A stretch of DNA of 64,000 nt, from NCBI GenBank assembly GCA_036023115.1, contig JAYKKT010000074.1, forward strand, positions 13,935,501 to 13,999,500. The letters are read 5' to 3'. The notes beneath the pieces were generated by a model. It was given only the letters and a program-made list of their open reading frames with translations. It ran no database searches and had not been told where the DNA came from. The translations under genes and the position numbers were made by a program. Positions 17,301 to 52,643 of this stretch are shown here, in pieces (position 1 is the first letter of the stretch; every line of letters starts with the position of its first letter). The stretch comes from Brasenia schreberi. Its lineage: Eukaryota; Streptophyta; Magnoliopsida; Nymphaeales; Cabombaceae.

Positions 17301-20300
17301 CTTAAATGAATCTCATGATACCGTTGGAAAACATGTTTTTACGGCTGATGGTAAAAAACTTCAAATTAAAAAAATAAGAAATTTTGAAAAAGAAAATTTT
17401 AAAATCCAAAATGTAACTTTATACCTAAACTTAATTTGAACTTACTTTCAGTCGCTCAAATTTATGATAATGATTGTATAGTCACTTTCTCATCCAAGCA
17501 TTGCGTGGTGTAGGATCACCTATCGAATAAGGTAATTGGTCAAGACCATAGAGAAAGTGGACTATACAAAATGGATTATCTTGTTATACCAAATTTTGAG
17601 TTTTGTAATGTAGTCCAAGATACTACCCTTTGGCATAAACGACTTGAACATTTTGATTTACAAAAATTATGTAACATTCCTTTGATGAAAAAGATTAGGT
17701 AACAAAAGTTAGAATGTAAAGAATGTGTTCTTGGGAAGATGCATCATCTCCCTTTTTGTGAAAGAAACTATGTACCGAACAAAGCCTTTGAATTAATACA
17801 TTCTGATGTTTAGGGCCTTGCCCCGTTGTTTCTAAGGGAGGAGTTTAATATTATGTGATATTTGTGGATGACTTTATTCGCTTTACTTGGATATATCTTT
17901 TGAAGCATAAATCAGAAGTATTTAAAAAATTTACAATCTTTTGCAACATGATCAAAAATCAATTTGGAGCCACCATTAAGATTTTTATATCGGATTCAGG
18001 AGGAGAATATATGTCAAATGAATTTCAAAAATCTATTGAAACTAATAGGATCTTTCATCAAAAGTCTTGCACTAAAACTCCTCAACAAAATGAATTCGTT
18101 GAGAGAAAACATAGACACATTATAGAAACTTACCGAACTATGTTAATTGCCAACAATGTTCGTAAGTTATGGGTAGAAGCTTTATTAAGTTAGAGAACCC
18201 AAGTTTTATCATCAAGCTAAAGGTATTCCAGAATGAAAAGATGCTATGAGGGATGAACTTAAAGCCTTAGATAAAGCTCAGACATGGACCATTGTTGTTG
18301 GAAAACGTGGTTGTGTAGCGGAGATTGAAAATCACAAATATAAAGAAGAGGAAATGTAGAGATCGGAGGAGGGGGCGAACCTCCAATAGAGGTCGCCCCC
18401 CCTCTTTCTCTCTCTTTCTTAATCTTAGCAACTTAAACCCTAATACAACCTATTAGCCCTTATATAAGGAGTTGTAAAACGTAAAATAACGAAAATACCC
18501 CTAGTACAAAAATTACCAAAATACCCTTTTGACTTCGGACAATTACAATAATACTTAGAAACATCAAATTTACTAAAAATGATTCTAAACTCATATTCTT
18601 CAACACCCCCCTCAAGTTGGGGGTGAGATACTTCGAACTTAAAACTTGTCAAAAAACTGGTTCTTTCTTCACCACACGTGCACGAACGATCTCTTCAAGG
18701 TTTCTGTAAAACAACTTCAACAATCAAGAACACATGGTAGCACACGACCCTTCTATGGGTGTTGGTTACTCCCTCTCTCTTTCTTCTTCTCCATAAAGTG
18801 ATTCGGCCGTTACACTTCAAAAGTCATATTTTTTCTACTCTTGAAAAAGCTGATTTTTTGTAATAGGAGGTACTACTCCACCATACACACTTCACACGGC
18901 TTTTCTTGCGCCCCTTCACATGGTGGCTACAACCGATGTGTTGATTGAGTGCCCTCTCTCTACCACTCAAATAGCAGAATACAGACATATGCTTATACTA
19001 GTTGGTCTGTGCCCCTTCACATGGTGACTGCAGTCGCTTTTCCAACCCTCCTAACTGTTTACTTCAGCAACTCAAGGTTTTAACTTTCATTCTTCTTGGT
19101 GATACTGTCACATTCCATACCATCAAATTTCTCTGGAGTCTGGCCTCTTCTATGATTTGATTTGTCATGCATGTTGTAGTGAAAAAGACTGATTTTGTGT
19201 ATTCCATCTTTCCTTCTATTTTCATTCAGTTGTTTTAACAATGAAGAAATCATCACTACTACTTTATATGTTGTTCTGTCCCCAGACATACAACTACCAA
19301 AAAACTCGGCAGGCATAAAAGAAAGGCCTCCTCTCTATACATATCATCAAATTATTCTCATGCCAACCCCACTCCATAGGCTTCCGCCTAGTCATAGAAC
19401 CGAAGAGCATAGCCCTAGTGTGCCTTTATATGTTGTTCTGTCCCCAGACATACAGCTATAATGTTTGTCTAAGGTTTTGTACCGAGACTTGCCACTCCAG
19501 CAGAAAGCCCCGCTCGCTCCCTCGTTGAGGCATTGCATCAAACATTTGGTTTGCAGCTATTTTCCTCACACTACCACCCACTCAGAATGTCCAGAGATTT
19601 ACGGTGTTGCGGAAATATTTGGTTACGACTTCCGGTAATCGAAACTGCAGGGATCATTACGGGACTTCCGGTCACCAAAATGTTTGTAGTGGAAGAGGCA
19701 AGAATTTTTGGTACTAGTCTCTCCTCGTCAACTGCTCAAATGGACAAAGATTCTAGATACGACTATTATCCCTGCCATTACATTACCATAGCACCCGCAC
19801 AAATCACGGTGGATCAGGCTGTGGACAAATGGGTCAGTTCATTTTGTCATCCTTGTCTGACTTGTTTCCACACCTAATTTGATCCTAAGAGACAAGCTGG
19901 TTTCTATGATCTTCTGTTGGACGTATCTGAACTACTTTTCTCAGAATCAACGGAGAAGTCATTAATCATCGCCCTTCTTCTTGGGATTCCGGTAACTCTC
20001 TTCAATGTGTTTTGCCATCAGGACGCCCGTATTGAAGACTTTTTTGATGTTGGGGACGTCGTAATTTTAAGCAATGTAGTAAAATTCGTTAAAAGCAGGC
20101 TATATCACGAGTCGTTGTGGATCCGTCGATTCGGTGGCTCTGATACCATGTTGGAAAAAGTGATTGCGCAACGGAGATTGAAAATCACAAATATAAAGAA
20201 GAGAAAAAGTGGAGATCGGAGGAGGGGGCAGACCTCCAATGGAGGCCGCCCCTCCTCTTTCTCTCTCTTTCTTAATCTCAACAACTTAAACCCTAATACA

Positions 20301-23300: not shown

Positions 23301-26300
23301 TTGAGAACAACTGCATGATCAAGCAGACCTTGTAGTGGGGAGATGGTTTTATGATGCATGCATTCCATTTAATGCAGCAAACAGTTTTCATTTTCAAGCA
23401 ATGACAGATGCAATTGCTAACATTGGTCCAGGATACAGGATGCCCTCTTATCAGAAGTTGAGAGAGAAGATATTAGATCAGACCGTCATTGAAGTGCAAC
23501 AATACTGTTCGACTTTGAGACAATTGTGGAAGGAAACAGGATGCACTATCATGGCAGATGGATGGACCGATAGGCGAGGAAGGACATTGCTAAACTTTCT
23601 TGTATATTGTCCTAAAGGACTCATGTTTTTGAGATCTCTAGATATGTCAGAGGAGAGGCACACTGCAGAGATCCTACGAGAGGAATTTGATAAGGTTATA
23701 CAGGAGGTTGGGCTAGAAAATGTAGTCCAATTGATTACAGATAATGCAGCTAACTACAAAGCAGCTGGAAAGGAGTTAGCTGATATTTATGGGACTTTCT
23801 ACTGAACACCATGTGCAGTCCATTGTTTAGATCTCATCCTCGAGGACATTGGCGAGATGGATGAAATAAAGGCAACAACTGAGTGTTGCCAAGATATTAC
23901 AAAATTCATTTACAACCATGCATTTGTTTTGTGTATGATGAGGAGATACACAGAAGGTGTAGAGCTTCTTCGCACAGCTGCAACTCGGTTCGCAACAAAC
24001 TTCTTATCTGTACAGAGTATTATGAGACAGAAGCAAGCTTTAAAGAGAATATTCTCCTCAGATGAGTGGCAACAATTTGCAGAGTTGCCTCAAAACAGAA
24101 GGAACAGAAAGTTAAATGAGATTGCAGAAACGGTTTTTAGAAGTTCATTTTGGAATGCATGTATCAGATTATTGAAAACTACTTGTCCTTTAGTGAAAGT
24201 TTTGAGATTGGCTGACAGCGAGGAGAAACCATCTATGGGCTACCTTTATGAAGCCATGGACAGGGCAAAAGAAGCAATCAGAAATAACTTTAATGGAAAA
24301 AAAAGAAATTATGTGTTTGTGTGGAAAATAATTGACAGTAGATGGAATAAACAATTGCATCAGCCTATTCATGCAGCAGCCTACTATCTAAACCCATCAT
24401 TGAGGTACTCAGCAACCTTCAAAAAGGATGGTGAGGTTAATCGATGAATCATTGAATGCATCGACAGATTAGTCCCTGATGAGAGCATAGCAGATGCGAT
24501 ACATCGAGAGATGGAGATATATGATAATGCTCTTCACTTGATGGGTTTGCCTGTTGTAATTCGCAACCGCAGTACGATGCGTCCAGGTAAATTGTTTATT
24601 TTCATATTTAAGTTTCATCTTACATTACTGTGGATTATGTCTATAATGTTTGTCTTTTTCTACAGATGTTTGGTGGAACAGGTTTGGAACTGATTGTCCA
24701 AACCTTAAAGATTTTACAGTAAGAGTCTTAAGCCAAACCTGTAGTGCAATAGGTTGTGAAAGAAATTGAAGTGTTTTTAAACACATCCATACAAAGAAGC
24801 GCAACAGGTTGGAACACAAAAGACTAAATGATTTAGTTTATATTCGTTGTAACATGTGCCTTCGTGAAAGGTAATGTTGTATTACTTTCAAATTTTCAAT
24901 TTAATATAGTTTAACTTCAGTCTTCAATTGTTAATATTATTTGCTAATTGTTTATCTTTGTTTGTCGTAGGCAATTAAAAAAAGTAAATAGAGAAGAAAG
25001 TCAGTTCGATCCAATAAGTTTGGATAATTTTGATATATTAGAATATTGGGTTATGGAAGACACTGAAGAAAATGCCCTCCTAACTGAAGAAGACGTTGCT
25101 TGGATTTATTTGGAAGGAGCGCAACAACAATATGAAGGAGATGAAGAATTTGATTTTCAAGAAGAAGGTGTCGCTGATGATGATGAGGATCTGCAAGCAA
25201 GAAGAAGATGAAGATTATTTAGTTGATGATCCTAATTATAATTTGTAAAATGTAACTGTGTCTGTAATGTGTATTTCATTTTTTGAATTCAAAATATGTA
25301 AATTGATATGTAATTGTTCAATGTTGAATGCTCAATCTGTACTAAACTTACAGTATATGAATTTAAAGCAATTACCAGAATTTTTCTGAATTTTTCCTGA
25401 TTTTTTTCGATTTTTTCGTATTTTTACTAATTTTTATTGATTTTTAATTAATTTTTGCATTATTTTAATATTAAAGTACGATACGATACGATACGCCCGT
25501 ATCGTGGAGCCCAGAGATACACGATACGATACGCGTCAGACAACACTGAGTTTACCTCTTTAGTTCCTTTCTTCTTGAACTATAGATGATAAAAGGGGTT
25601 TCAATTTTCGTCTAACACCTTCAAACTATAAAACATGGGCCCAATCTATGAAAAACTATTTGTATTTCAAAAAATTATGGAGCTATGTAAGTGGTTTAAA
25701 GGTAGAACCCTCTATTAATGCCATACTTGAACAAAAAGAGGAATATGAAGGAGGCCATAGAACAATCCTATGGGTGCTCATGAATAATGTAAACGAGCAC
25801 ACTAGGGACACTTTGGCCGATTTCACTATCGTATAGAAGCATGGGAATATTTTAAAAAATCCCATGTTAAAAGCGATGTGGCTCATAGGATGGCATTAAG
25901 AGACAAATTGGTCATACTTAAATAAGGAGATAAAGGGGTAAACGAATTTTTTGGGGAATTTTTCAATGTTTGGAATCAATCGTAGGTTACAAAAAGAAAT
26001 GTACACAATGTCTTAGTGAGAGACAATGTGAAGAAAATGAGGACTTTGTATATCAATTTCTAAGAAGTCTCCGAGAAGAATTTGAAGGGGTAAGATCATC
26101 ACTCATTCATAGAAAACCTTTTCCTACAAAAGAAGAGATTCTTACCGATCTTCAAATGGCAAAAACAAGAATGAATGAAGCAAGACTTCAAAAAGACACC
26201 GCCTTGGCTGCATCAAAACCCGGAGCAAATATGGAGACTTACCGACCTCCTCATTTCAAAAGTAAAGAAGAAAGAAAAGACATCATTTGCCATCATTGTA

Positions 26301-41600: not shown

Positions 41601-44600
41601 TTTAGCCTATTAGTTCGGGCAATGATCGGTTGATAACAGTCGTGGACAGTATTTTTTAAAGACCTGCAGTTGTACAAATTATTTTTGGCAAGTTTGTCTC
41701 TTGGTATATTTCCAGTTTTACTTGATTTGACATTAAGTGGTTATTTTTCAAAAACCTGCATAGCTATATTATTAGATTTCTATTTGAAAGTTTCAGAGAA
41801 ATGTTTTAAGATGCAGATGAACTTTTTTATGCAAACCTTTTTTGTTCTTGAAAATCTTTTGTTCGATACATCCTTATAGATTTCCTTTCTTGTATTTGAG
41901 AAACAAACTTGTGTTTCTGAAAATTTCTTTCATTTTTTATTTTGCTTTTCGAGTTTTGCTCACCTTGTTAGATTCTCTTAATGTGCTTGGATTCATGAAG
42001 TCACCTCTGAGATTGGGAGACGTTTGAGGGCCTTGGTATTTTGTTGGCTCGTTACTAGCCATATGGTTCGACCTCTACCTTAACCTCAGTTAGGTTGTGA
42101 TTGCCTATATGGTTTGAGTTTTGCCTTAAGCTCGTTTTGTTGGCATGTTTGTCATATCAATGCACCTTGGCCTTTTGTAGTATGCTGCCAGTTTGTTGTG
42201 ACTAGTGAATTGATTTGTCATATTAGAGAATCCTACTTGGCTGATTAATGCTTCTTCTTGGAGAAACTTCTTCTTATGCTTTTAGCTAAATGTTATGGGA
42301 ACTCTTTTTTTTTAAATCTTAGGATCTTGCTTGATGTTTTGACTTTTTAGAATTAGGATCTTCTTTGGTTTCAAGTTTGTTTCATTCTCTTAGCGAGATG
42401 TTAATTATTTTTTGTTGAGTTATATTGCACCAAGTTGTCTTGTAGGTATTAAGCATACGAAAATAAAGGATGACAAACCTGGTGTGAACTTGAGCAAGGC
42501 AATAGGAAAGGCATTGCAGACAGCTGCAGTATTCATGATGTTAATGTGCTTCATTTGAAACTATGGAATCAGTATTTGATCTGAGCCAACGAAATGAAGG
42601 TAGTTATCAGCGTCATGGGAGACTGGTGGGATTAGTACACAATTCATGGTAAGAATTGGGGCTCTTTGTGTACACGACACATGATCTGAAGCAGCGAAGG
42701 CTGCTATCTCATAGTCATATGAGACTAGTGGGATCAGTACAGAGTAAAGGTGAGATTATGGTGGAGGAACATCGTTTTGAAGAATAGCATCAACTGTGTT
42801 TCAAGGCTCAGTATAGAAGCTACCTTGTTGAACTTCTCATTGGAATGGTTATTGATGTGTTTCAAGGCTGAGTATAGAATAGCATCTAGATTTCCTCTTC
42901 TTCTCGTCAAACTTTCGGTTCACTTACCGGAAGTTTGAAGTTCTTTTATAACTAATCTTTTTTCTAATTTGTTGCAATAACCATTGGATAGCAGTAGACC
43001 TTCAATGACTAGTGAAGCTACTGTTTCTTCTTCCCTTTCCTTGTACACACTAAATAACGGTTTCAAACCCATTGTAATGTTCATTCATCTCTCTTCACAG
43101 GTTTCATACAAAATAAAGATGTTTTCCATTACCTTGTATTGTCCATAGACTCCCTCCGTTAATGGTGTTGAAAAATGTGGATGTGCAGCGGAGATTAAAA
43201 TCACAAACATAAACAAATATTGAAGAGGAAATGTGGAGATTGGAAGAGGGAGCGGACCTCCAATGGAGGCCGCCCCCCCTCTGTCTCTCTCTTTCTTAAT
43301 CAATGACTCTTAAACCCTAATACAACTTATCAGCCCTTATATAAGGAGCTGTAAAACATAAAATAACCAAAATACCCCTAGTACAAAAAATTACCAAAAT
43401 GCCCCTACAGTTTCGAGCGAGTACAATAATACTTAGAAACATAAAACTAACACAAAGACACTAGATAAACATATTCTTCAACACCCCCCCTAAAGTTGGG
43501 AGTGAGATACTTCGAATTCCAAACTTGCCAAAAAATCTTCATATCTTCTTGTAACGTTCTTCATCTGTCTTCATCACTAGTTTAATCTTCAACAGCTTCT
43601 TTGGCTGCAATATCTTCAACTCAGCCTTCTTGGTTATTCATATCAAGCAGCATCTCTGGCTGCAATATAAACTTAGCCTTCCTGGCTAATCATCTCCAGC
43701 AGCATCTCTGGCTGCAACATCAACTCAACCTTCTTGGCTGTAACAATAATAAAGCAGCAATCCTGACTATCACATCAACAAAGCAGCCATCCAGGCTGTC
43801 ACATCATCAAAGCAGTCATCATGACTGTCACAACCATCAAAGCAGCCATCCTGGCTGTCACAACAATAAAGCAGCCATCCTGGCTGTTATCTAAAGCTGC
43901 ATCTATGGCTGCAACAAACTTTTATCAACCTTCATTTTTTTTTTCAAGCAGCTTTCATAGCAGCAAATTCCTGCAACCTCACTGGCTGTGAATAAAAACA
44001 TTTTTGAAGTCCTCATAACTGCAATCTTCAGCATATATCTCTTCTCTATAAACTTTCTTCATGTTGTTTTTCAAATAGAGACAATCATCACGTACTAATC
44101 TCTTCTTTACTCTTTTCTTGAATTTTCATCTCTCTTAGACATTTCTTCAAACACTTGATGTATAGGTAAATATATCTTCTTGAGCATTTCAGCGAACACT
44201 TGATATGTAGATAAACATCTCTATGTGAAGGTGAATATTTTTCTTGGACATTTCATCTAACACTTGATGTGCAGGTAACTCAGCTCTTCTTGAACATTTC
44301 GTCAAACATTTGAAGTGCAGCAGAGACATTGGTAAAGATTTGTGAATTTATCTTCCTCAAAAGATAGGAAAAGACGCAGTGACATAGGAAAAGACTAATC
44401 TCTCATCTCTTCTAAAAGGAGATTCAGTAAGAAGTAGATATCGTTGCTACTGGGATGAGACTTATAAAAGGCAACAAACCCATGAACCAACCCTTCCAGC
44501 TGCAACCAGCATTCTTCTCAATTCCTTTGTCTTTCATCATCTTCTTCATCTCCCCGGCTTTGGCATATTTTCCTATGGATGCATACAGGATCGCAAGAAT

Positions 44601-47600
44601 CACAGTCAGTGGACTCACAACAACCCAATTCAGAAAGTTTACTCATCGCCATTTCAGCTCTTCTGATATCCTTGTGACTCCTGCAACCATCTAACAAACT
44701 TCTCCATATAATATCGTCAGGCTCAATGTGCATCCGTTTGATAAACTCCCCGGCTTCATCCTGCTCGATCAAATCGATAGTCTTCATTCTCTCGAATTTG
44801 GCTCGTCCTTCCTCCATCATTCCTGCATGATTGCATGCAGAGAGTATGGGAACATGCGTGCTCTCATTCGGCCAAATTCTCGAAATTTCCATCTTAGCGA
44901 ATAAATCGAGTGTTGATCTGCCGTCGCCCTGCAGAGCCAAACCGGCGATCATGGCATTCCAAGAAATAGCATCCGGTCTAGGAATTCTATCAAATTTTTC
45001 CCTTGCGAGTTCGATCATGCCGCACTTCGAATACATATCAACCAGTGCAGTAGCCACCTTGATAGTGAGATTCATCCCATGTTTCTTCAAGTACCAGCGT
45101 ATCCATCTTCCCGATTTAACTGCACCCAACTAGGAAGACGCAGATAGCACGGACACAAGAGTAGCCTCCGTTGGCATAAGCCCTGGTTGGCTCAGCATCT
45201 CCCTGAACAGTCGGAGAGCTTCCGCCGACTGATTGGTTTGCGAGTACCCAGAGATCATCACCGTCCACAACACATCTTTGACATCAATCAAATCAAACAC
45301 AGCTCTAGCATCGTCAGGTCTCCCAAATTTAGCATACCCATTTGCCATGGATGTTGCTGAAACCAAATCCCTCTGAGGCATTTTGTTGAACACTTGGCAA
45401 GCAAGTTCAATTTGTGAACAACTGCAATAGAGACGGATAAGATGGTTTGACGCCGGCTTCCGGGCATGCCGGGACCTATTCAACACATCCACAACCAGTC
45501 AGTGGGAAAGGTTCACATTGCACTGGCCTAAAACGGCTTCCATATTCCCATCTTAAGCGAACAATTCCTCAACCACTTTGTACACCCTGTCAACCTCTTT
45601 GACATGCTCTCTCTTCTTATCATTGTCTTCGCCTGCTTTATCAAAAACGTCATCATGGGATTCATCACTTGAAACATCACCGCCATCTGCTAAGTCTTTT
45701 GGGAATATACATGCAGCTTGACCACGAAAAAAAAAAATCAAAAGAAGTATGAAAGCCAAACTGAGGCATAGGAGGCAGGGATAGAGAAGCACCATGAGGA
45801 ACGCGTAGTCTCTAAAGCCTTCCTTGTCCTCTTCCACAGATTCTGCTAAGTCTTTTGGGAATGAGCACTACAAGAAACAGGACTATAAAATGGCTCTGCG
45901 AAAGTACAAAAAACCCTAATCCGAGAGAGAACGACGAAGACGGCACCGAGCCACCAATATTTTATCAATATTTCGATTCCAGGCTCTGATACCATGTTGA
46001 AAAACGTGGATGCGCAGCGAAGATTAAAATCACAAACATAAACAAATATTGAAGAGGAAATGTGGAGATCGGAGGAGGGGGCGGACCTCCAATGGAGCCC
46101 CCCCTTCTTTCTCTCTCTTTCTTAATCACAGACTCTTAAACCCTAATACAACTTATCAGCCCTTATATAAGGAGATGTAAAACATAAAATAACCAAAATA
46201 CCCCTAGTACAGAAAATTACCAAAATGCCCCTACAATTTCGGGCGAGTACAATAATACTTAGAAACATAAAACTAACACAAAGACACTAGATAAACATAT
46301 TCTTCAACAAATGGAGTTATGATTCTTACTCTTGAGCGCTTTGTGGGTTGTGACAATAATATGGTGTTGCACTGCTGCATATGTGCGAGTGGTTTAAGAT
46401 TGCACTCTTTGAAGGCTCAAGTTGAAGACAATGTTTAAGCACATTCAGGAAAGCAATTTCAACGTTCATCATCACGCAACCATGAATGCACACAATGAAT
46501 GTTGAAGAATATGAGTTTAGAGTCAATTTTAGTAAATTTGATGTTTCTAAGTATTACTGTAATTGTCCGAAGTCGTAAGGGTATTTTGGTAATTTTCTGT
46601 ACTAGGGGTATTTTGGTCATTTTATATTTTACAGCTCCTTATATAAGGGCTGATAAGTTGTATTAGGGTTAAGTTGATGTGATTAAGAAAGAGAGAGAAA
46701 GAGGGGGGCGACCTCCATTGGAGGTCTACCCCCTACTCCGATCTCCACATTTCCTCTTCTTTATGTTTGTGATTTTTCAATCTCCGCTGCACATCCACGT
46801 TTTCCAACATGGTATCAGAGCCGTTAGATCAATGGGAGCAGCGACCAGTGGTTGTCAACATACAGAAAAAAAAATGGTACATTTGCTGTTTGGTACATTT
46901 GTTTGGTTGTTCTAAGTTGCACGACAATTGCTGCTCAAGCCAAACCGTCATATTATAAATCCAAAGTGAAGCCAAACCGTCATATTATAAATCCAAAGTG
47001 ATTCAGTTGGCTCCCATTACCTCTCTGTTTGTCAAGGCTACCTATGTAACTTTTGATCATAGGGCAGTGGATGTTGTCGCAGAAATTGCAGCACCTGTCC
47101 ATTGGCATACATGGATCGGACTGTATCTGAAGTGTTGAAAAAGATGGTTCGGAAGTACAGCAACAAAAGACTCATTGCAATTGCAGTAAAAAATGCAAAT
47201 GTTGTTCTTGCTGAGGAAATGAAAACAAGGCTGTTTGGGAAATCCAAGGCTATGTTTAGTTTGTCGGCATTGAAAAGATCAGTTGATCCACATGTTGCAA
47301 GGAAAAAATTCAACCAGAAACATATGAAATATGAACTGATCTAGTTGTAAGGCCATTCAGAACTCATCATGTTATTCCAAGCTAGGGCTATGTCATTTAT
47401 TCTCTAAGACGTAAGCTCAAGAAGATGTACGCTCATCTTAGAGGAGACAAGATCAAGAATTGAAGCTTGCTGGTGTTGAGATCACAGATACCATTTTGTC
47501 TCCAAAGGTAGCCTTCACTGGAGACACAACGGCTGATTTTATGCTAGAACCACGAAATGCAGATGCTCTTCGAGCAAAAGTTCTTATAACTGAGGCAACT

Positions 47601-50600
47601 TTCCTTGATGATGGCATTCGCATCGAGCATGCACGGCAACATGGTCATACCCACTTATTAGAGCTAATCGAGAATGCTCAGTGGATACGCAACAAGGCAA
47701 TATTGCTCACCCATTTTTCATCAAGATACAAAATCGAGGATAATGTTGTTGCAGTGACTTTCTCACCTCAAAGCAAGAAAAGAAACTACAAGTCCTGAAA
47801 ATGGCCTGATAAGTTAAAAAATGAAGTTCTCAAGGAAGAAGAAGACGACCATGAAAAAAAAGGAAGGTGATTGGCTGCCTTAAATGATGGTGTTCCAGTT
47901 TTTTTTTTTTTAAGAAAGGTTACACAAAATAGTGGAAAGAAAGATTTGAAAGGTAATTTCAAAATTTTTGAATAATCAAATGCTGGAAAAGTAAAGTTCC
48001 AAATTACTTGCCTGATTTTATGGGAAAGTAGTTATGAAAACTTCCTTTTTTTGATTGGATGAGAAAGTAAACCATTAAGTCTTATCCCCAGCCTGATTTA
48101 ATGGGAAAGTAGTTATGAAAACTTCATTTTCTGATTGGATGAAAAGTAAACCAGTAAGTCTTATCCCCACATTTTTTGGGAAAGAAAAATGGTAACTGCT
48201 ATCTTAACTGCTATCCATTATCCACATAAATAAAGTAGTTACTGCAGATAAAAGAAATACAGGTATTCTGCCAGCACAACATAAGGTGACGATGCAAGAT
48301 GGTACTGTAGATATCAAAGGAGAACCTACTGTCAGAAGTAAATCAGGAAACTGGAAAACTTGCCCCTTCGTATTAGGAAATGAATGCTGCGAAAGATTGA
48401 CATACAATGGAATGAGTACAAACCTGGTGAACTAATTGATTGATCTTCTCAACTAGGGAAGTGCCCAAGCTGTAAATTTTTTGTTATAAATTGGTCATGA
48501 ACATACTACGTTGCTCCATTATTCGGTGCCTTTCTTGCTTGGAAAAATATGCAAGAAGAAGATGAATGAAAACAATATAAGAAAAGGAACGATAGAAAAG
48601 GAAGAGGTCATTGATTGGAGATGGGCAACAAATATCTACCTGGAGTTTTTTTTTTCAGGGCAGAAGGCCGATAAAATTTACATCAGAAAGGATGAAGGAT
48701 ACAACAAAGTTGAATAATCTACCTCCAATACATACTGGAAAGTGGCCAACAGCATTGGTTCATGAAATACAACAAGAGCTGGAGAAAGGGACACCTTTTA
48801 CATATCGCTTTCGTGTTCCAAAGGAGGGAACTCTGAAAATTGATGATCTAATACGTGGTGAGGTCAGTTGGAACTTGAACACACTCGGAGATTTTGTGAT
48901 TTTAAGAAGCAATGGCCAACCTGTCTATAATTTTCTGCGTCACAGTGGATGATGTCACAATGCACATTTCTCATGTCATTAGAGCAGAAGAGCATTTACC
49001 CAACTCTCTGCGGCAAGCCCTTATATACAAGGCCCTTGGATTTTCTATACTTACTTTGCACACATTTCTTTAATTCTTGCTCCTGATAAGAGTAAGCTAT
49101 CAAAAAGGCACGGTAAAACATCTGTGGGTCAGTTCAGGGAAATGGGTACCTACCAGAAGCTATGGTGAATTATCTTGCTCTTCTGGGGTGTGGTGATGGT
49201 ACAGAACAACAACAACAACAACTAAGCCTTTTCCCATACTAGACGGGGTCGGCTACATGGATTCTTTGTTTCCACAGATCCCTATCGTGTGTCATGTTAG
49301 CAGTTAACTCCCAATAAGCTAGATCATTTTTTATTGTTTCTTTCCAACACTTTTGTGGTGATGGTACAGAAAATGAATTTTTTTCAGTGGACCAACTCAC
49401 TACTAAGTTCTCAATTGGACGTTTCAACAAAAGTGGGGTTGTATTTGATTCTGCAAAGTTGAGGTCCTGACATTGGTGGTGAGTTTGGTCCTTATTGACA
49501 ATCAGAACAGAATGCTTTGTACAAGCAGTATGCTGAGCAGTTATTGAATTCTGGTCATGTTTATCGGTGCTTTTGCTCCACTGAGGAACTCAAAAGGAAG
49601 AAAGAGAAGGCAATTGTGTATGGACGCTGAAGTTCAATTGTGGGCAGATTGGATGGAATGTCTCCAATCTACCGATTCTTCCAAGTTTATATAAAAGAGC
49701 TACTAAGGATGCTCGTGCACGTGTGGTGAAGAAAGTCATGTTGATGATCAGCCAGGAAGGTTGAGTTGATGTTGCAGCCAGAGATGCTGCTTGAGATTAT
49801 CAGCCAGGAAGGCTGAGTTGATGTTGCAGCCAGAGATGCTATCAGTGTTGTCTGATGCGTATCGTATCACGTATCGCTGGGCTCCACGATACGGGCGTAT
49901 CTTATCGTATCGTACTTTAATATTAAAAAACTATAAAAATTATTTAAAAAATCAATAAAATTAGTAAAAATCCAAAAAAAATCAAGAAAATTCTGGAAAA
50001 TTTTGGAAAAATCTGGTAATTGCTTTAAATTCATATAATGCAAAGTTTAGCAGAAATTGAACATTTAATATTGAACAATTGCATCCAAAATTATATATTT
50101 TGAATCAAAAAATGAAATACATTTATATTTTACATATTGTAAATTTGTATCAGGATCATTAACTAAATAATCTTCATCTTCTCCTTGATGATGTTGTTGC
50201 ACTTCAAATTAATTCATGCAATGTCTTCTTCAGTTAGGACTTAGGAGTGCATTTTCTTCGTTATCTTCCATAATCCACTCATGTAATATATCAAAATTAA
50301 CAAATTGCTATCTTTGTACATGTAGTTGTTATATTTGCTAATTTTCATATGTGAGCAAAACAAAGAGCTCCATTTCTTTGATTATTGAGTCTATGACACC
50401 TCAATGATGTGATATTATTACTTGATGGTGTCCCTTTTTTCTCTTATTGGAGACTAGCTTTTTAACTAATGCTTGAGCTTCATTTCTCACTTCACAGACT
50501 GAGTTAAGCCTCACACACATTGATCATGTTCAACTCAATGGAAGTCATGTAACGTGAACCCTAAAATAGTGAAGTTGTGAAATCCCTACTCAATGAACCG

Positions 50601-52643
50601 AGAGAACTAAATGTTTTTAATTGTTTACGATCTTATGAAATTAGAAACTGTTAGCAAAAATATACCTAAAAGTTGTAACAGAAAGGGAAATGATTTTGTC
50701 ATAAAAAAATTTTTATACATTATTCTTATTAAATAAATGAAATTATAAACCCAAATTATAAGCATATTGGAGGATGCCTTTAAGGGAAGTGAAGAGAGGG
50801 GAAGAGAGGGCAGAAACATGCAAAAAAAAATTGAAAAAAAAATATTTTGAAAAAAAATTGAAAAAAAAATTGAAAAAAAAAATTGGGCGTACGATACGAG
50901 CGTTACGGGCCGTATCGTACGATACAGTATCGTATCGTGGCGTATCGCACCGTATCATACGATACGGTGCGATACGGATAACACTAGATGCTACTTGAGA
51001 TGATCAGCCAAGAAGGCTGAGTTGATGTTGTAGCTAGAGATGCTGCTTGAGATGATCAGCAGAAAGGCTGAGTTGATGTTGCAGCCAGAGATGCTACTTG
51101 AGATTACCAGTAAGGAAGGTTGAGTTGATGTTGCAGCCAGAGATGCTGCTTGAGATGATCAGCAAGGAAGGTTGAGTTGATGTTGCAGCCAGGGATGCTG
51201 CTTGAAATGATCAGCCAAGAAGGCTCAGTTGATATTGCAACCAGAGATGCTGCTTGAGAGGATCAGCGAGGAAGGCTGAGTTGAAGATGTTGCAGCGAAA
51301 GAAGCTGTTGAAGATCAGATTAGTCATGAAAACAGATGAAGAATGTTGCAGACAGTAAGAATTTTTAGCAAGTTTGGAGTTTGAAGTATCTCTCCCAACT
51401 TGAGGGGGGTGTTAAAGAATATGAGTTTAGAGTCAGTTTTAGTAAATTTGATGTTTCTAAGTATTATTATAATTGTCCAAAGTCGTAAGGGTATTTTGGT
51501 AATTTTCTGTACTAGGGGTATTTTGGTCATTTTATGTTTTACAGCTCCTTATATAAGGGTTGGTAAGTTGTATTAGGGTTAAGTTGTGATTAAGAAAGAG
51601 AGAGAAAGAGGGGAGCGGCCTCCAATGGAGGCCACCCCCTCCTCCGATCTCCACATTTCCTCTTCTTTATGTTTGTGATTTTTCAATCTCCGTTGCACAT
51701 CCATGTTTTCCAACAATGAACACACAAGTTCTCATACACAGACTGAGACCCACAAATGGCATTGCAGTTAGCAAAGTTTTGGTTCCCTAGAAGGCATCAA
51801 TTATAAAATAGTCAGGCCACACTTTAACTCCGCTCATGGAAGGGATCACCCTTGCATCGCCGGTTCCAACCCGGATAAAAGAGGAGGGTTGCATTAGGCT
51901 TCCGACAGTCAGCGTAAAACTTTATCGGACTTATCTACTATAGATTCTACAAATTATGATAGGGCTCAGTGGAAACAAAGAATCCTTGTAGCCGACCCCA
52001 TCTAGTATAGGAAAAGACTTTGTTGTTGTTGTTGTTCACGCTACACTTTACAAGCAATTTTGAGCACCAAAGCTATATGAGCAAAAAGCGATGAAATGAG
52101 AGGCATGTCAAGTAGCCACCATCAAAGGAATGAATAAATAGTCAAACCCATCAACAAAACTCAATATACAAATGCAAGGAGTCACCTAAAAATGAACTCC
52201 AAATGTGCATGATGCATGTATGTAAAAGACAAACCTAATATGGGTACCCAGCAAGGAAGGCACTTAACATGAGCTCCAAATGTGCATGATGGAGTGATAC
52301 AGTAGTTTAGATGCCTTACTTCAAGACGAAAGCGTTATCACGTGAGTGCTCAAAGGACTTCGCTATGGAATCGCTCATCCACTCAAGGAAACTCTTCACA
52401 TAATCAATGGTACTTGCAGCAACATTAGTAAGAAATGCTATCGGGTAACTGAGATGATCTTGCACCCATTGCTGCAAAATAGACATAATTAAGTACTTCG
52501 TAAATAAAGCAGTTTATCTATAAATTGTGGAACAGTTATACCACTCACTTGTTCAAGTATTAAGATAAGTTCTAACACCCGTCCAGCCGTATCAATTGGA
52601 AGTAGCACATTTCCACCTGCTCGAAGTGTCCTCAATATAGCAT
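11293..52643 (-). CDS. CPSF100: CPSF100 (CPSF subunit 2), partial gene, 10 exons spread over 41 kb
   Basis: Scaffold subunit of the nuclear cleavage and polyadenylation complex; in the family it is the catalytically inactive beta-CASP partner of the CPSF73 endonuclease. Exons in gene order are 52643-52549, 52471-52320, 34721-34664, 34579-34472, 33900-33648, 31827-31643, 31244-31155, 30865-30767, 11627-11496 and 11337-11293. I joined them by hand: every junction has AG acceptor and GT donor, all phases agree, and no stop occurs in about 405 codons. Recognisable family stretches are [73 protein letters not shown] and [11 protein letters not shown]. The family is about 740 residues, so the N-terminal metallo-beta-lactamase part and the last part are outside the window. 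Introns of 17.6 and 19.1 kb are filled with transposons, yet the coding parts show no damage. The gene looks live; expression cannot be judged from sequence. Confidence 0.94.
11496..11627 (-). CDS. CPSF100: CPSF100 exon ([18 protein letters not shown])
   Basis: 132 bp, 44 codons in phase 0, ending [10 protein letters not shown] before donor gtactctt. The acceptor is ttttgaag. It continues exactly where the exon ending PLKL stopped, 19 kb upstream in the gene. Confidence 0.94.
11977..12018 (-). mobile_element. 42-bp RTE LINE 3'-end insertion
   Basis: Only the extreme RTE 3' end, (CAA)n then ctaagccttttcccat and gacggggtcggct. Flanked by a perfect 17-bp duplication, actccagaaattctaaa (11960-11976 and 12019-12035). 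Lies in the intron upstream of the [12 protein letters not shown] exon. Confidence 0.9.
12036..12647. other. CPSF100 intron sequence, nothing recognised
   Basis: Unique-looking intron between the 42-bp LINE tail and the old LINE. The open frame 12088-12306 has no family resemblance I can see. Confidence 0.5.
12648..13791 (+). pseudogene. Old RTE LINE, RT part (left piece of a split element)
   Basis: Degenerate copy of the RTE polyprotein. Readable pieces are KNQFGFM, [12 protein letters not shown] [32 protein letters not shown] and, after a gap, [17 protein letters not shown] and [17 protein letters not shown]. The motif expected to read FADD is broken near 13310 by the same apparent four-base loss as in the full-length copy. 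The left end truncates in the RT domain. The element continues at 30390-30612, on the far side of 16.6 kb of nested insertions. Confidence 0.85.
13792..15885 (-). mobile_element. hAT F: deleted hAT transposon, minus strand
   Basis: Left terminus CAGTGTTGTCTGACGCG matches the 3' end of hAT A and D. Minus-strand transposase pieces include a BED-like N-terminus ([12 protein letters not shown] near 15655; CLFCE with Cys pair), [15 protein letters not shown] (15180-15120), [20 protein letters not shown] (14935-14870) and a C-terminus ending [12 protein letters not shown] near 13870. Internal deletions remove the segment between AIA and CPKG near 15065 and the last exon near 13815. Copia B inserted at 15886; the hAT resumes only for a few bases (30380-30389) before the old LINE. 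Unlike hAT A, D and E it has a sense codon, TCA, where they share a stop. Confidence 0.87.
15886..16258 (+). repeat. 5' LTR of copia B
   Basis: 373 bp ending aatataca. The partner is 30014-30379. It includes gggccagtagggcccgtgc and a TATA-like tctataaata near 16067. Confidence 0.92.
16259..16271 (+). promoter_or_regulatory. Primer-binding site of copia B
   Basis: TGGTATCAGAGCC directly after the 5' LTR. Confidence 0.93.
16380..18295 (+). pseudogene. Copia B gag, protease, integrase and start of RT
   Basis: Gag with the core [20 protein letters not shown] (16582-16848) and a zinc knuckle read as [14 protein letters not shown] near 17060-17100, in which the second Cys is Tyr. Protease [18 protein letters not shown] from 17245 has Ser in place of the Gly of D-S-G. 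Pre-integrase [15 protein letters not shown] near 17635; integrase [32 protein letters not shown] and [15 protein letters not shown] at 17855-18193. RT starts with [20 protein letters not shown] just before E2 interrupts it at 18296. Several stops replace Trp, for example DV-stop-GL near 17810. Confidence 0.9.
18296..18605 (-). repeat. 3' LTR of E2
   Basis: 310 bp; contains the family's aataccctagtac-like AT-rich block and a C-run ccgccccccc-like tract near 18385. Confidence 0.9.
19260..19460 (+). repeat. Direct repeat of about 30 bp inside E2
   Basis: ctttatatgttgttctgtcc followed by ccagacatacaactac occurs at about 19261 and again at about 19424, roughly 160 bp apart. Confidence 0.8.
19500..20130 (+). 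pseudogene. Unidentified gene fragment carried by E2
   Basis: Two adjacent open pieces on the strand opposite to E2: 19533-19877, containing [19 protein letters not shown] and [18 protein letters not shown], and 19917-20330, containing [18 protein letters not shown] (the frame is open from upstream) and [14 protein letters not shown]. The composition is protein-like rather than repeat-like. The second frame runs on into the LTR and is not real past about 20130. I do not recognise the family. The region between could be a retained intron or a stop-bearing join. Antisense placement differs from E1 and E3, whose fragments are in sense. Confidence 0.5.
20149..20459 (-). repeat. 5' LTR of E2
   Basis: 311 bp, adjacent to the PBS at 20136-20148. 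Shares its sequence with the LTRs of E1 and E3. Confidence 0.9.
20460..21719 (+). pseudogene. Copia B RT and RNase H, middle piece
   Basis: Resumes exactly after E2: [58 protein letters not shown] and the catalytic YVDDMI near 20920, open from 20433 to 21023. The rest of RT and RNase H ([37 protein letters not shown]) has frame shifts and a Trp-to-stop change at 21421. It stops at ATMYY where copia C inserted. Confidence 0.9.
21586..21745 (+). repeat. 80-bp tandem duplication across the copia B / copia C junction
   Basis: 21586-21665 and 21666-21745 are near-identical. Each unit holds the last ~54 bp of copia B coding sequence plus the first ~26 bp of the copia C LTR (TGTTAAAGAACTGGG), so the duplication happened after copia C inserted. 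Confidence 0.93.
21720..22108 (+). repeat. 5' LTR of copia C
   Basis: 389 bp with TATA-like ctctataaata near 21892. The start was also copied into the 80-bp duplication upstream. Confidence 0.92.
22229..25548 (+). mobile_element. hAT A: near full-length hAT transposon
   Basis: 3320 bp. Starts CAGTGTTGTTCGTATCGCA and ends CGCGTCAGACAACACTG. The flanks agtttct and agtttacc look like a decayed 8-bp duplication. Both ends carry arrays of the heptamer cgtatcg on either strand. The transposase gene lies between. Inserted in copia C between the primer-binding site and gag. Confidence 0.9.
22759..25212 (+). pseudogene. hAT A transposase (BED finger, DUF659-like, dimerisation), with stops
   Basis: Start chosen at [10 protein letters not shown], which all copies share. 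The frame upstream (from 22630) ends in an acceptor-like tttcag, suggesting a 5'UTR intron. BED finger [19 protein letters not shown] near residues 32-50; Ser/Gly/Arg linker; [20 protein letters not shown]; catalytic-core motifs [16 protein letters not shown] and [17 protein letters not shown]-terminal [25 protein letters not shown] and [15 protein letters not shown]. Two GT-AG introns, 24587-24665 and 24871-24970, restore the frame. Premature stops include TGA after MA (23302-23304), TGA replacing Trp in FYWTP (23803-23805), TGA at 24445-24447 and TGA in CERNWS near 24770. Not functional as read. Confidence 0.9.
25600..27110 (+). pseudogene. Copia C gag, protease and first half of integrase
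   Basis: Gag begins [22 protein letters not shown] at about 25625 and runs in pieces to 26377. A zinc-knuckle region reads [13 protein letters not shown] near 26290, and the last Cys is displaced. Protease [16 protein letters not shown] near 26475 has D-S-S rather than D-S-G. The open frame 26534-27109 carries [27 protein letters not shown] and HSDVWG and stops at a Trp-to-TGA change after DDFTRYT. Confidence 0.9.
27110..29377 (+). pseudogene. Copia C integrase, RT and RNase H
   Basis: Integrase continues with RSDSGEEFM and [17 protein letters not shown] 27994-28602 has [35 protein letters not shown] and an intact [12 protein letters not shown], but is cut by a Trp-to-TGA change at 28252-28254 and a frame shift near 28590. 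A deletion of several tens of bases near 28695 removes the RT-to-RNase H linker. RNase H 28721-29377 is fully open: [42 protein letters not shown] and [11 protein letters not shown]. This is the only long intact domain of the element. Confidence 0.92.
29385..29770 (+). repeat. 3' LTR of copia C
   Basis: 386 bp; differs from the 5' LTR by scattered substitutions and short indels in the GC-rich first 100 bp. Confidence 0.92.
29771..30013 (+). pseudogene. Copia B RNase H end and polypurine tract
   Basis: Begins with the 5-bp target duplication of copia C, then [20 protein letters not shown] and DCHFVREE, ending SVYTPSV and the purine tract before the 3' LTR. It completes the frame left at 21719. 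Confidence 0.92.
30014..30379 (+). repeat. 3' LTR of copia B
   Basis: 366 bp, ending aatttaca. Small differences and one short deletion from the 5' LTR show an insertion that is not recent. Confidence 0.92.
30390..30612 (+). pseudogene. Old RTE LINE, 3' end (right piece of the split element)
   Basis: Continues the LINE left at 13791: degenerate VRSREKLE, then actgaccccatctagtatgg and a TTG tail. About 20 bp of LINE sequence is missing at the join, along with the terminus of hAT F. Confidence 0.8.
30613..30766. other. CPSF100 intron end next to exon PLKL
   Basis: Unique intron sequence between the old LINE tail and the exon donor at 30766. Confidence 0.6.
30767..30865 (-). CDS. CPSF100: CPSF100 exon ([18 protein letters not shown])
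   Basis: 99 bp, 33 codons in phase 0, ending VAPLKL before donor gtatgtc. The acceptor is tatctag. The intron that follows is 19.1 kb and contains the nested transposon stack. Confidence 0.93.
31155..31244 (-). CDS. CPSF100: CPSF100 exon ([16 protein letters not shown])
   Basis: 90 bp, 30 codons in phase 0. Acceptor tcttctag, donor gtaagctt. A longer open frame that runs on to 30939 is intron read-through past this donor. Confidence 0.92.
31643..31827 (-). CDS. CPSF100: CPSF100 exon ([19 protein letters not shown])
   Basis: 185 bp. It contains the most characteristic plant CPSF100 stretch, [20 protein letters not shown], then [20 protein letters not shown] and an acidic tail. Acceptor ttccttag, donor gtaagaca. 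Confidence 0.95.
31828..33647 (-). other. CPSF100 intron of 1.8 kb, no other gene seen
   Basis: Between donor gtattgac and acceptor ttccttag. Apart from the microsatellite I see no transposon, unlike the neighbouring large introns. Confidence 0.7.
32641..32717. repeat. (TATC)n followed by (TA)n microsatellite
   Basis: About 13 tatc units with one tatg variant, then tatata. Lies in the intron between the DPMVID and DILIDGF exons. Confidence 0.95.
33648..33900 (-). CDS. CPSF100: CPSF100 exon ([20 protein letters not shown], charged linker)
   Basis: 253 bp. It begins [19 protein letters not shown], contains [19 protein letters not shown], a Lys/Glu-rich stretch and DPMVID, and ends in the first base of a Gly or Ala codon. 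Acceptor catttag, donor gtattgac. The linker after DPMVID is the variable part of the family. Confidence 0.94.
34472..34579 (-). CDS. CPSF100: CPSF100 exon ([18 protein letters not shown])
   Basis: 108 bp, 36 codons in phase 0. It ends [10 protein letters not shown] before donor gtaagact; the acceptor is ttatgtag. Matches the segment of the family that precedes the FGTLARMLQ block. Confidence 0.93.
34664..34721 (-). CDS. CPSF100: CPSF100 exon ([19 protein letters not shown])
   Basis: 58 bp: one base finishing the split Lys codon, then 19 codons. The acceptor is aattttag and the donor gtgattaa. Small exon of the beta-CASP part. Confidence 0.92.
34884..35286 (+). repeat. LTR-like repeat of degenerate element F, copy 1
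   Basis: Shares gataaca-free landmarks such as ggatagcagtagac, actagtgaag, ttgtacaca, aataaagatgttt and aggctcaagttgaagacaa with 42936-43165 plus 46315-46470. It starts TGTAGTTCTTTTATAA and ends cccttaca, followed by tggtaccaaagc, two bases different from the usual copia primer site. I infer an LTR; no clean target duplication was found. Confidence 0.6.
35287..36427 (+). other. Interior of degenerate element F, no domain recognised
   Basis: Contains plus-strand open pieces such as 36137-36442 ([20 protein letters not shown]) that do not match any gag or pol domain I know. They may be decayed gag of a different lineage. Confidence 0.4.
36674..37297 (-). pseudogene. RTE LINE polyprotein, C-terminal part after the frame shift
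   Basis: Open for 207 codons: [67 protein letters not shown] and [17 protein letters not shown]. This post-RT domain also appears in the truncated copies at 8178-8576 and 49206-49353. Confidence 0.92.
37423..39708 (-). CDS. RTE LINE polyprotein, endonuclease and RT, open for 761 codons
   Basis: Single-frame polyprotein. AP-like endonuclease at residues ~90-345: [30 protein letters not shown] (the catalytic GDxN box), SQTQIDYF and [12 protein letters not shown] at ~570-760: [74 protein letters not shown] and [13 protein letters not shown]. The first half has no stop, unusual among the transposon genes here. The frame ends at 37423, just before the FADD catalytic box, where about four bases appear lost (near 37395). 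The rest continues at 37297-36674 in another frame. Confidence 0.93.
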   Translation of the reverse strand: MDYKNYEHCFGASPPSDVLQSPNAVRSKQGPLHFRPNVVNQLQRGFPHHGRVWVKKLVPLHCRPNVVKNFQRGSPHFEYGPMRGVRKLVLDNKIRIDSWNIGTLSGKLMEVVDTMIRRKIHILCLQETKWVGEKAKEIEDTGFKLWYSGKEKARNGVGIIINKDLKESVVDIQRYGDQIMTLKLVLGAEVLNIVCAYAPQVGLEDSIKTVFWEELDKVFQKIPQREMICLGGDLNRHVGKEALGYQGIHGNFGFGDINEEGREILNFAMSFDLFIVNTIFRKRDEHLITYKSGLSQTQIDYFICRKKDRACCKDCKVIPGESLTTQHRLLVMDLQIKKRTKKKRVHRPIRTKWWNLKSEKEDIFKWKVLQGDVWNYVGTPCDMWNNMAIHIRKVTKDVLGVSKGGVPAQKEAWWWSEVVQNKIKAKRACYKLHYAKKTSETLEAYKKAKKEAKKAVSEAKAKIWDDLYKKLNSKEGKRDIFRIARARDKKTKDLNYVRCIKDEDDKILVANDDIRNRWKNYFYNLFNENKDVSISLGDLAKSEKYINHNFYRRIQKNEVKEALKHMKSGKSVGPDNIPIEVWKILEEIGITWLTRLFNEIWKNQKMPEEWRASTLIPIYKNKGDIQNYANYRGIKLMSHTMKLWERIIERRLRQVSSTTENQFGFMPGRSTIEAIHLLRRLMEHFRAKKKDLHMIFIDLEKTYYRVPREVLWRTSEKRGIPLTYINLIRNMYDGDFFEVNIGLHQGSTLSPYLFIMVMDEL
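39991..42935. other. Interior of degenerate element F or unannotated intron
   Basis: Includes a GA-rich stretch (about 40295-40580) of gagagaga units. From 42560 there is an imperfect direct repeat, gactggtgggattagtacac and gactagtgggatcagtacag, 120 bp apart. No domain recognised. Confidence 0.45.
42936..43165 (+). repeat. LTR-like repeat of element F, copy 2, left part
   Basis: Starts TGAAGTTCTTTTATAAC and matches 34884-35100 with many substitutions. It was split by E1 at the duplication aatgg. Confidence 0.65.
43166..43483 (-). repeat. 3' LTR of E1
   Basis: 318 bp, minus-strand start TGTTGAAGAATATG. Same family as the E2 and E3 LTRs. Confidence 0.93.
43600..43920 (-). repeat. Tandem repeats of E1 (ggctgcaacatcaactcagcc type)
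   Basis: Four or more imperfect units built from agcagcatctctggctgcaa and ctcagccttcttggct, grading into shorter units based on aagcagccatcctggctgtc. Reverse complement of the ~52-bp array in E3. Confidence 0.85.
44518..45492 (-). pseudogene. PLS/E-class PPR protein fragment carried by E1
   Basis: Two pieces separated by a stop near 45131: 45492-45130 and 45129-44518. They show repeated PPR signatures: [60 protein letters not shown] and [15 protein letters not shown], then the E-motif region ([15 protein letters not shown]). PPR proteins of this class bind organellar RNA. The fragment has no organelle-targeting N-terminus and contains stops, so it is a captured, dead piece. It is in the same sense as E1, with no intron seen. 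Confidence 0.88.
45450..45837 (-). pseudogene. P-class PPR N-terminal fragment joined to the PLS-class piece
   Basis: Reads [14 protein letters not shown], a stop, [16 protein letters not shown], and [15 protein letters not shown]. This is the start-of-repeat region typical of a P-class PPR protein (the family continues ARKPA.RFF). Here it switches at ARKPA directly to a PLS-class sequence ([10 protein letters not shown]). An acidic stretch ([18 protein letters not shown]) and a hydrophobic segment precede it; their source is unclear. Confidence 0.65.
45995..46309 (-). repeat. 5' LTR of E1
   Basis: 315 bp next to the primer-binding site at 45982-45994. Confidence 0.93.
46315..46498 (+). repeat. 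LTR-like repeat of element F, copy 2, right part
   Basis: Continues the copy interrupted at 43165 (ttgtgggttgtgacaa, gctgcatatgt, ggctcaagttgaagacaa). E3 begins at 46500. Confidence 0.65.
46500..46809 (+). repeat. 5' LTR of E3
   Basis: 310 bp, TGTTGAAGAATATGAG to ttttccaaca. TATA-like ccttatataagg near 46635. Confidence 0.93.
46810..46822 (+). promoter_or_regulatory. Primer-binding site of E3
   Basis: TGGTATCAGAGCC immediately after the 5' LTR. Confidence 0.93.
46930..47002 (+). repeat. Short tandem duplication in E3
   Basis: agccaaaccgtcatattata followed by aatccaaagtga occurs twice in a row. Confidence 0.9.
47102..47344 (+). pseudogene. RNase J-like C-terminal fragment in E3
   Basis: Open for 80 codons: [20 protein letters not shown], then a Lys/Arg-rich end. 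The pattern of an amphipathic helix followed by VRKYS.KR is what I recall from the C-terminal part of plant RNase J, a beta-CASP ribonuclease of chloroplasts. It is short, so the identification is tentative. It runs directly into the tRNase Z piece with no linker. Confidence 0.45.
47345..47798 (+). pseudogene. tRNase Z fragment in E3
   Basis: Begins [13 protein letters not shown], then a stop, [13 protein letters not shown], a frame break near 47460, then an open stretch with [51 protein letters not shown] and [12 protein letters not shown]. tRNase Z removes 3' trailers from tRNA precursors. FTGDT and the HFSSRY histidine region are family hallmarks. The N-terminal part with the HxHxDH metal site is absent, and the exons appear joined without introns. 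Confidence 0.92.
48285..48430 (+). pseudogene. NPF/PTR transporter N-terminal fragment in E3
   Basis: Reads [20 protein letters not shown], then ACPF-like [20 protein letters not shown] and STNLVN before a stop. [18 protein letters not shown] is the first transmembrane region of NPF8-type peptide transporters in plants. No ORF longer than about 50 codons remains, so a length-filtered ORF search would miss it. In sense with E3. Confidence 0.85.
48718..49470 (+). pseudogene. Organellar glutamyl-tRNA synthetase, C-ward fragment, in E3
   Basis: [40 protein letters not shown] and [20 protein letters not shown] are open to 48952. In other frames follow [20 protein letters not shown], the KMSKS-type box SKLSKRHG near 49095, and, beyond the LINE insertion, [20 protein letters not shown] and [13 protein letters not shown]. 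This enzyme charges tRNA-Glu in plastids and mitochondria. Exons are fused as in mRNA. Frame shifts make it non-functional. Confidence 0.93.
49206..49353 (-). mobile_element. 148-bp RTE LINE 3' fragment in the synthetase pseudogene
   Basis: (CAA)n, then the RTE 3' end and the last codons ([19 protein letters not shown] on the minus strand). Perfect 17-bp duplication tgtggtgatggtacaga (49189-49205, 49354-49370). Confidence 0.92.
49466..49625 (+). pseudogene. Glutamyl-tRNA synthetase, N-ward fragment placed after the C-ward one
   Basis: Reads [11 protein letters not shown], a stop, then [20 protein letters not shown] and [14 protein letters not shown]. In the family this segment precedes the PPIHTGKW block, so the order is swapped relative to a normal gene. 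The join is at about 49466, inside AKLR. Confidence 0.85.
49744..51300 (+). repeat. About eight ~52-bp tandem units of E3, split by hAT B
   Basis: Units of the form gatcagccaggaaggctgag, ttgatgttgcagccagagat, gctgcttgag at 49744-49842 and 50987-51300. Related units, inverted, are in E1 at 43600-43920. Confidence 0.88.
49843..50986 (-). mobile_element. hAT B: non-autonomous hAT element, 1.14 kb
   Basis: Termini CAGTGTTGTCTGATGCG and GGATAACACTA. Flanking octamers gatgctat and gatgctac match at seven of eight. It has the same interior as hAT C but the opposite orientation. It retains only the region around the last transposase exon (50160-50290, minus strand). Confidence 0.88.
51399..51409 (+). 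promoter_or_regulatory. Polypurine tract of E3
   Basis: cttgagggggg immediately before the 3' LTR; second-strand priming site. Confidence 0.85.
51410..51715 (+). repeat. 3' LTR of E3
   Basis: 306 bp. Begins TGTTAAAGAATATG where the 5' LTR has TGTTGAAGAATATG. Confidence 0.93.
51827..52036 (+). mobile_element. Short internally deleted RTE derivative, copy 2
   Basis: About 210 bp with the same head-to-tail join as 9051-9273 (...ctacaaattatgatagggct | ...aacaaagaatcc) and a TTG tail. Flanking repeat gc[c/t]acacttta (51816-51826, 52037-52047), 11 bp with one mismatch. Confidence 0.82.
52320..52471 (-). CDS. CPSF100: CPSF100 exon ([12 protein letters not shown])
   Basis: 152 bp, from [13 protein letters not shown] to SRDNAFVLK. 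The acceptor is ttttgcag and the donor gtaaggc. The last two bases (AA) pair with a G 17.6 kb downstream to complete a Lys codon, which ties the two exons together across a transposon-filled intron. Confidence 0.94.
52549..52643 (-). CDS. CPSF100: CPSF100 exon (beta-CASP region, [11 protein letters not shown])
   Basis: 95 bp: two bases of a split codon, then 31 codons from [12 protein letters not shown] to LILILEQ. The acceptor reads ccatgtag and the donor gtgagtgg. A 77-bp intron separates it from the next exon. The exon before it is not seen in 52644-64000. Confidence 0.92.

Follow-up and report, generated by a model that had tools for sequence, protein, structure and literature searches.

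In maize, 425 intact LTR elements carry gene fragments, which stem from at least 189 captures and involve 81 families, with about two captures per family on average and some elements that belong to no family (PMC2774510). Captured genes number 672 in rice and 1343 in sorghum (PMC3726574), and the soybean TRIM GmaRetroS15 contains pieces of three genes (PMC4717578). Template switching in reverse transcription is a described route by which cellular sequence enters LTR elements (PMC5408686, PMC13317346), and a 2026 review files Bs1 of maize under (read-through) transduction (PMC13317346). Outside plants, circRNA-derived pseudogenes have been reported from mouse and primates (Dong et al. 2016, cited in PMC6965350 and PMC5408686). 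A gene-capturing LTR family is less new as a kind than an earlier note on the locus described here had suggested.

The locus lies in a 64-kb stretch of DNA from Brasenia schreberi, all of which was analyzed (64,000 nucleotides; the window). It is plant-like DNA with nested Copia and hAT-like elements, and it holds three LTR elements, E1, E2 and E3 (Table 1). They belong to one LTR family without gag or pol, and we consider it likely that its members gained pieces of host genes through template switching, including, in E3, a back-spliced circular RNA of a glutamyl-tRNA synthetase (GluRS) gene. The permuted order of this GluRS cargo is the most unusual feature of the locus and is absent from the earlier note.

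Table 1. Features of E1, E2 and E3 (positions are those of the window; TSD, target duplication)
Feature	Position	Strand	Remarks
Element E1	18296..20459	minus	2164 bp; TSD ATTGT at 18291-18295 and 20460-20464
E1 3′ LTR	18296..18605	minus	
23-bp perfect block, E1 copy	18663..18685	minus	identical in E3
E1 cargo: DUF4535 (PF15054) fragment	19983..20078	minus	sense with element; E 2.8e-11, 43.4 bits (cut-off 28.3)
E1 primer-binding site	20136..20148	minus	TGGTATCAGAGCC
E1 5′ LTR	20149..20459	minus	
Element E2	43166..46309	minus	3144 bp; TSD AATGG at 43161-43165 and 46310-46314
E2 3′ LTR	43166..43483	minus	
E2 3′ repeat region, matching E3	43485..43779	minus	82% over 295 bp, E 1.6e-76
E2 cargo: PPR E motif (PF20431), sub-threshold	44496..44603	minus	E 1.6e-4, 22.3 bits (cut-off 27.3)
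E2 cargo: PPR repeats	44833..45447	minus	sense with element; PF01535, E 7.9e-32
E2 primer-binding site	45982..45994	minus	
E2 5′ LTR	45995..46309	minus	
Element E3	46500..51715	plus	5216 bp including two later insertions; TSD ATGAA at 46495-46499 and 51716-51720
E3 5′ LTR	46500..46809	plus	
E3 primer-binding site	46810..46822	plus	
E3 cargo: RNase Z (ZS1-type) fragment	47448..47777	plus	7xgt_A residues 182-291, E 8.3e-37
E3 cargo: NPF/PTR transporter N-terminal fragment, weak	48307..48429	plus	NRT1.1 chains, E 0.0018
E3 cargo: GluRS piece A, gene residues 169-373	48686..49463	plus	split by later SINE-like insert
Later SINE-like insert in E3	49205..49369	plus	includes one copy of 15-bp target duplication GTGGTGATGGTACAG
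E3 cargo: GluRS piece B, gene residues 126-175	49464..49612	plus	placed after piece A
23-bp perfect block, E3 copy	49713..49735	plus	identical in E1
Later hAT-like insert, in E3 52-bp repeats	49842..50985	plus	8-bp duplication AGATGCTA
52-bp tandem repeats, E3 3′ region	50986..51318	plus	
E3 polypurine tract region, adjoining 3′ LTR	51394..51409	plus	by sequence
E3 3′ LTR	51410..51715	plus	

All three elements have the make-up of LTR retrotransposons, with a TG..CA LTR pair, a primer site, a polypurine tract and a target duplication, and the positions of primer site and polypurine tract set their strands. Their six LTRs are 306-318 bp long and not, as given earlier, uniformly 310 bp; identity of the LTR at 18296 to the remaining five is 82-91%, and the window contains no further full-length LTR match. 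Immediately after the 5′ LTR, each element carries the same 13 nt, which we take to be an initiator-Met primer site. These features bear out the claim of one LTR family with a common primer site, and the 5-bp target duplications, which by sequence and script are perfect and differ from element to element, do the same for the claim of three separate insertions. The two LTRs of a pair diverge by 0.102 (E1), 0.049 (E2) and 0.051 (E3; all K2P), mainly through transitions (24 of 29, 10 of 15 and 13 of 15 differences, respectively). In elements without reverse transcriptase, a 5-bp duplication and a Met primer site are compatible with the Copia superfamily and go no further than that. Searches with the LTR core pattern gave no match in viral and prokaryotic contig collections, nor did the LTR in a plasmid collection.

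The surroundings of the elements are themselves repetitive. E1 is located in the pol region of the outer of two nested Copia elements (outer, 15886-30379, LTRs 15886-16258 and 30014-30379, 91.7%; inner, 21720-29770, LTRs 21720-22108 and 29385-29770, 90.5%). When E1 is removed and one copy of its target duplication is kept, the frame is open across the join, with one upstream stop within the 75 bases used, and resembles Copia-type reverse transcriptase. To the right of E1, 20547-20752 is 76% identical to 28126-28331, which lies within the RVT_2 match of the control Copia described below. The SINE-like repeat inserted into E3, which we take to resemble plant Au SINEs, recurs at 8145-8298 and 36613-36764 with 97-98% identity to the E3 copy (49206-49359). 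Over 1010 bp, the other insert has 98% identity to 56348-57351; we tentatively call it hAT-like, given the 8-bp duplication of one copy. Related hAT-like elements with cgatacgatacg arrays are seen at about 13790-15793, 22230-25550, 57476-60324 and 62007-64000, and a tRNA-Ile (anticodon tat) called by ARAGORN at 61978-62052, in the cgatacg-rich end of one such element, is likely spurious.

The interiors of the elements contain no recognizable retroelement genes, as the earlier note had stated. Six frames of each interior were compared with Pfam (stops as X, E-value <=0.05), and none of the three gave a match to reverse transcriptase, integrase, protease or gag. As a positive control, the three forward frames of the neighboring Copia (26001-29002) yielded RVT_2 (2.3e-56), rve (6.3e-11) and SH3_retrovirus (3.2e-16) above cut-off, with gag_pre-integrs (3.7e-6, just under) and Pol_BBD below it. 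The interiors also differ almost completely, again as claimed before. Past the primer site at the 5′ end, blastn (word 7) finds no significant similarity among the three; the best match, between E1 and E2, has an E-value of 0.47 and reaches base 22-23, and the GAATCGA that these two have in common within the next 10 bases past the primer site may be due to chance. At the other end, about 50 bp preceding the 3′ LTR are common to all three (84-88%; blastn), and E2 and E3 additionally share a repeat region of about 300 bp whose unit is 52 bp. Thus, the core common to all three elements consists of the LTRs, the 13-nt primer site and the roughly 50 bp that include the polypurine tract.

Established classes of non-autonomous elements were weighed as well. 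That E1-E3 are retrozymes or elements of the TRIM or LARD type, with incidental cargo and no special link to capture, is in our estimate highly unlikely. Their LTR length, primer site and absence of genes are those of such elements, but no hammerhead or other Rfam family is found in the window at gathering score, the elements measure 2.2-5.2 kb, and the interior common to the copies is limited to the 3′ part. Retrozymes were rejected as a class assignment on the absence of the hammerhead; a permissive Rfam scan of E3 returned only matches far below cut-off, none of them a hammerhead.

Host-gene families are present in the cargo of all three elements, in agreement with the earlier note, although its assignments hold to different degrees. 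In E1, what had been called an unidentified gene is in part a DUF4535 fragment on the sense strand, near the primer site. The long antisense ORF (19473-20130, plus strand; about 220 codons with one stop) still has no match in Pfam, NCBIfam or protein databases, with a best E-value of 0.34 in PDB, and the bulk of the E1 interior, like several stretches of E3, has no match in the protein and domain libraries searched. The cargo of E2 is of PPR type and can be read as two different PPR genes joined. Near the start of this cargo, a 21-bp perfect direct repeat (45686-45706 and 45842-45862) stands around 135 bp, and it may be the trace of a template jump at sequence similarity.

E3 contains pieces of several genes. 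Of the four translation/RNA-processing or transport pieces proposed earlier, RNase Z and GluRS are clear and the NPF fragment is weak, whereas the matches obtained for 47063-47344 all lie far under cut-off (Pfam HI0933_like at E 0.0044; NCBIfam at E 0.0094 and 0.052), and further searches with it gave none. The RNase Z fragment has further matches at E 5.1e-37 and to TIGR02651 (E 9.2e-10), the latter scoring below the whole-protein cut-off because only a fragment is present. The NPF fragment matches TIGR00926 at E 0.033 and has no Pfam match. A likeness of 47063-47344 to the C-terminal part of plant RNase J was considered and found no support in the searches. Since the cargo differs between E1, E2 and E3, there were at least three captures, as the earlier note had argued; its further suggestion that the family captures routinely is judged here from three copies in one 64-kb window.

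The GluRS cargo, which derives from a chloroplast-type glutamyl-tRNA synthetase, is arranged back-to-front. By tblastn, residues 169-373 precede residues 126-175 in E3 (Amborella P0086 numbering). Without the SINE-like insert, piece A has 613 nt where 614 are expected, and piece B has exactly the expected 149 nt, the whole spanning one lap of 742 nt and an overlap of about 20 nt. This overlap is less certain than the A/B join, because piece B is degenerate over its final 27 nt (matches at 6 of 9 residues). The join itself (49463/49464) reads ...AAGTTGAG followed directly by GTCCTGAC..., as would be expected where a phase-2 exon end meets a phase-1 exon start.

Exon ends were placed from the gene models of other plants and not from the host gene. 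To this end, 119 plant gene models were aligned to Amborella P0086, and insertions (a retained intron) or deletions (a skipped exon) were taken to mark boundaries, a model without an indel at a position giving no information there. At residue 126, indels occur in 3 of the 119 models (P0005, P0077 and P0120), none from a water lily, with the other 116 silent; P0077 reads WDE-GKIA-GPG, which fits an intron starting GTAAGATA after the first base of the Gly codon. Five of the 119 have indels at residue 373, namely P0002 (Victoria), P0008, P0029 and P0048 (both Citrus sinensis) and P0120, and P0002 lacks exactly the LVSK...TKLR stretch that is present in P0025. Further indels within the lap fall at 156-166, ~270-283 and 350-351. 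The GluRS pieces have no intron at three inferred boundaries (166, ~268, seen in P0120 only, and ~351) and thus, with boundaries from other plants' models, consist of exons only.

With the exon ends so placed, the 3′ end of a downstream exon runs directly into the 5′ start of an upstream one (residues 373/126), which is the arrangement that defines circRNA-derived pseudogenes, and on sequence grounds the A/B join is likely a back-splice-type junction. Because its parts stand back-to-front and are joined at likely exon ends, the GluRS piece was likely copied from a circular RNA. A circular template likely accounts for its order, join and length together.

Three other origins of this arrangement have to be weighed. 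The main one, which we consider unlikely but with some real chance, is a linear RNA that carried the exons for residues 126-373 twice, through tandem exon duplication or trans-splicing, and was captured across the repeat. It would be expected to give the same join at exon ends, and the P0001 model (Artemisia annua) does have a duplicated exon block; however, the ends of that block are different, the water-lily-family models P0002 and P0025 hold these exons once, and a captured length of one lap plus about 20 nt is unexpected for a linear repeat. The P0001 block itself falls at 166 or 175-177, depending on the alignment, and is either an assembly error or a real duplication.

That reverse transcription switched twice, independently, onto ordinary GluRS mRNA and put A before B by chance seems to us improbable. 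E3 likely did undergo several switches, as it combines pieces from different genes, but here both join ends fall on inferred exon boundaries, and the outer ends of the GluRS cargo close on each other within about 20 nt. Under a rough uniform model with five assumed boundaries, of which three have only approximate positions, the chance of both join ends lying <=1 nt from a boundary is ~2e-4.

Finally, the host fragments might have reached elements already in place, through DNA-level insertion or gene conversion; E3 did gain its SINE-like and hAT-like inserts later. Those inserts have target duplications, whereas informal inspection by eye found none around the gene pieces of E1-E3. The GluRS cargo moreover spans three inferred exon boundaries with no intron, and the interiors diverge right after the primer site in all three elements. 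We regard such late addition as very improbable.

The affinities of the GluRS pieces vary with the measure used. The GluRS search gave plant proteins in its best 120 of 7224 hits. When these 120 are compared over 83 residues of piece A, the two water-lily-family proteins come out ahead (Nymphaea thermarum 72, Victoria cruziana 71), the next best reaching 66; by E-value Artemisia P0001 comes first, followed by Victoria and Magnolia. Over five GluRS pieces (225 residues), Nymphaea scores 185 against 182 for both Dioscorea and Magnolia, and Victoria falls outside the top 14; both water-lily-family models lack one exon stretch within this comparison. As far as a single gene can show, the DNA likely comes from a plant in or near Nymphaeaceae.

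Capture during reverse transcription, which we prefer, would proceed as follows. With reverse transcriptase supplied in trans, minus-strand synthesis would start at the tRNA primer and pass through the polypurine tract and the 3′ region. The nascent minus strand would then jump onto a cellular RNA, or several in turn, and second-strand transfer would reconnect the product with the 5′ end at the primer site before integration with a 5-bp duplication. In E3, one of the templates would have been a back-spliced GluRS circular RNA, copied for a full turn (742 nt) and about 20 nt more, and copying of the circle would leave the exons in permuted order and the back-splice junction within the copy. Such template switching would explain the multi-gene content of E3, the intronless GluRS and the position of the cargo, fixed beside the primer site. 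Read-through transduction would be another route of capture. The length of one lap and 20 nt could correspond to what we take to be the spacing between the polymerase and RNase H sites of reverse transcriptase; we gave this no weight.

We lean, with some reserve, toward a fuller form of this account, in which a plant LTR retrotransposon took its cargo from a circular RNA of the host, the 742-nt GluRS circle being copied once with about 20 nt added, and in which any RNA is possible cargo and the interior is renewed by capture. If LTR, 13-nt primer site and about 50 bp make up the core, it would follow that any RNA can serve as cargo. If the account is true, plant LTR reverse transcription uses circular RNAs as templates, and their copies persist as a legible fossil, a permuted exon order with an exact back-splice join; genome sequence alone could then tell which circular RNAs entered virus-like particles. 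E1-E3 would also show how small the cis-required part of an LTR element may be, and the process would give reading frames fused from several genes a way to originate.

Compared with the described systems, the locus combines features that are found separately elsewhere. In the maize survey, no element combined fragments from two or more standard nuclear genes, whereas E3 holds at least two and likely three (PMC2774510). Bs1 resembles E3 in that several host-gene pieces, three in Bs1, are fused in one LTR element, but it is described with one cargo set, in contrast to three copies with unrelated cargo within 64 kb here (PMC13317346). Set against Bs1, E1-E3 also have no gag or pol match. TRIMs of the GmaRetroS15 type are similar to E1-E3 as small gene-less LTR elements with 5-bp target duplications, and they hold exon-only fragments of up to three genes per element (PMC4717578). 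The gene-carrying TRIMs measure 1172-1449 bp, however, against 2164, 3144 and 5216 bp for E1, E2 and E3, and on this size difference the TRIM assignment was rejected; a permuted exon order, present in E3, is not mentioned in the available account of these elements (PMC4717578).

With respect to circular RNA, retrozymes are non-autonomous plant LTR elements linked to it, but their circles come from the element itself via hammerhead ribozymes, whereas the circle behind E3 would be a host RNA (PMC4918200). The mammalian circRNA pseudogenes are closer to the GluRS cargo, being retrocopies with a back-splice junction, for which LTR sequence in the flanks is reported in mouse (PMC6965350, PMC5408686). 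Unlike these, the copy in E3 is of a plant gene and is embedded in an LTR element, with the primer site on one side and the polypurine tract on the other. A literature search returned no plant LTR element with circRNA-derived cargo in the available text of open-licence PMC papers. Gene-carrying LTR elements in plants and circRNA pseudogenes in mammals are thus already known, and what is new here is the permuted GluRS cargo of E3.
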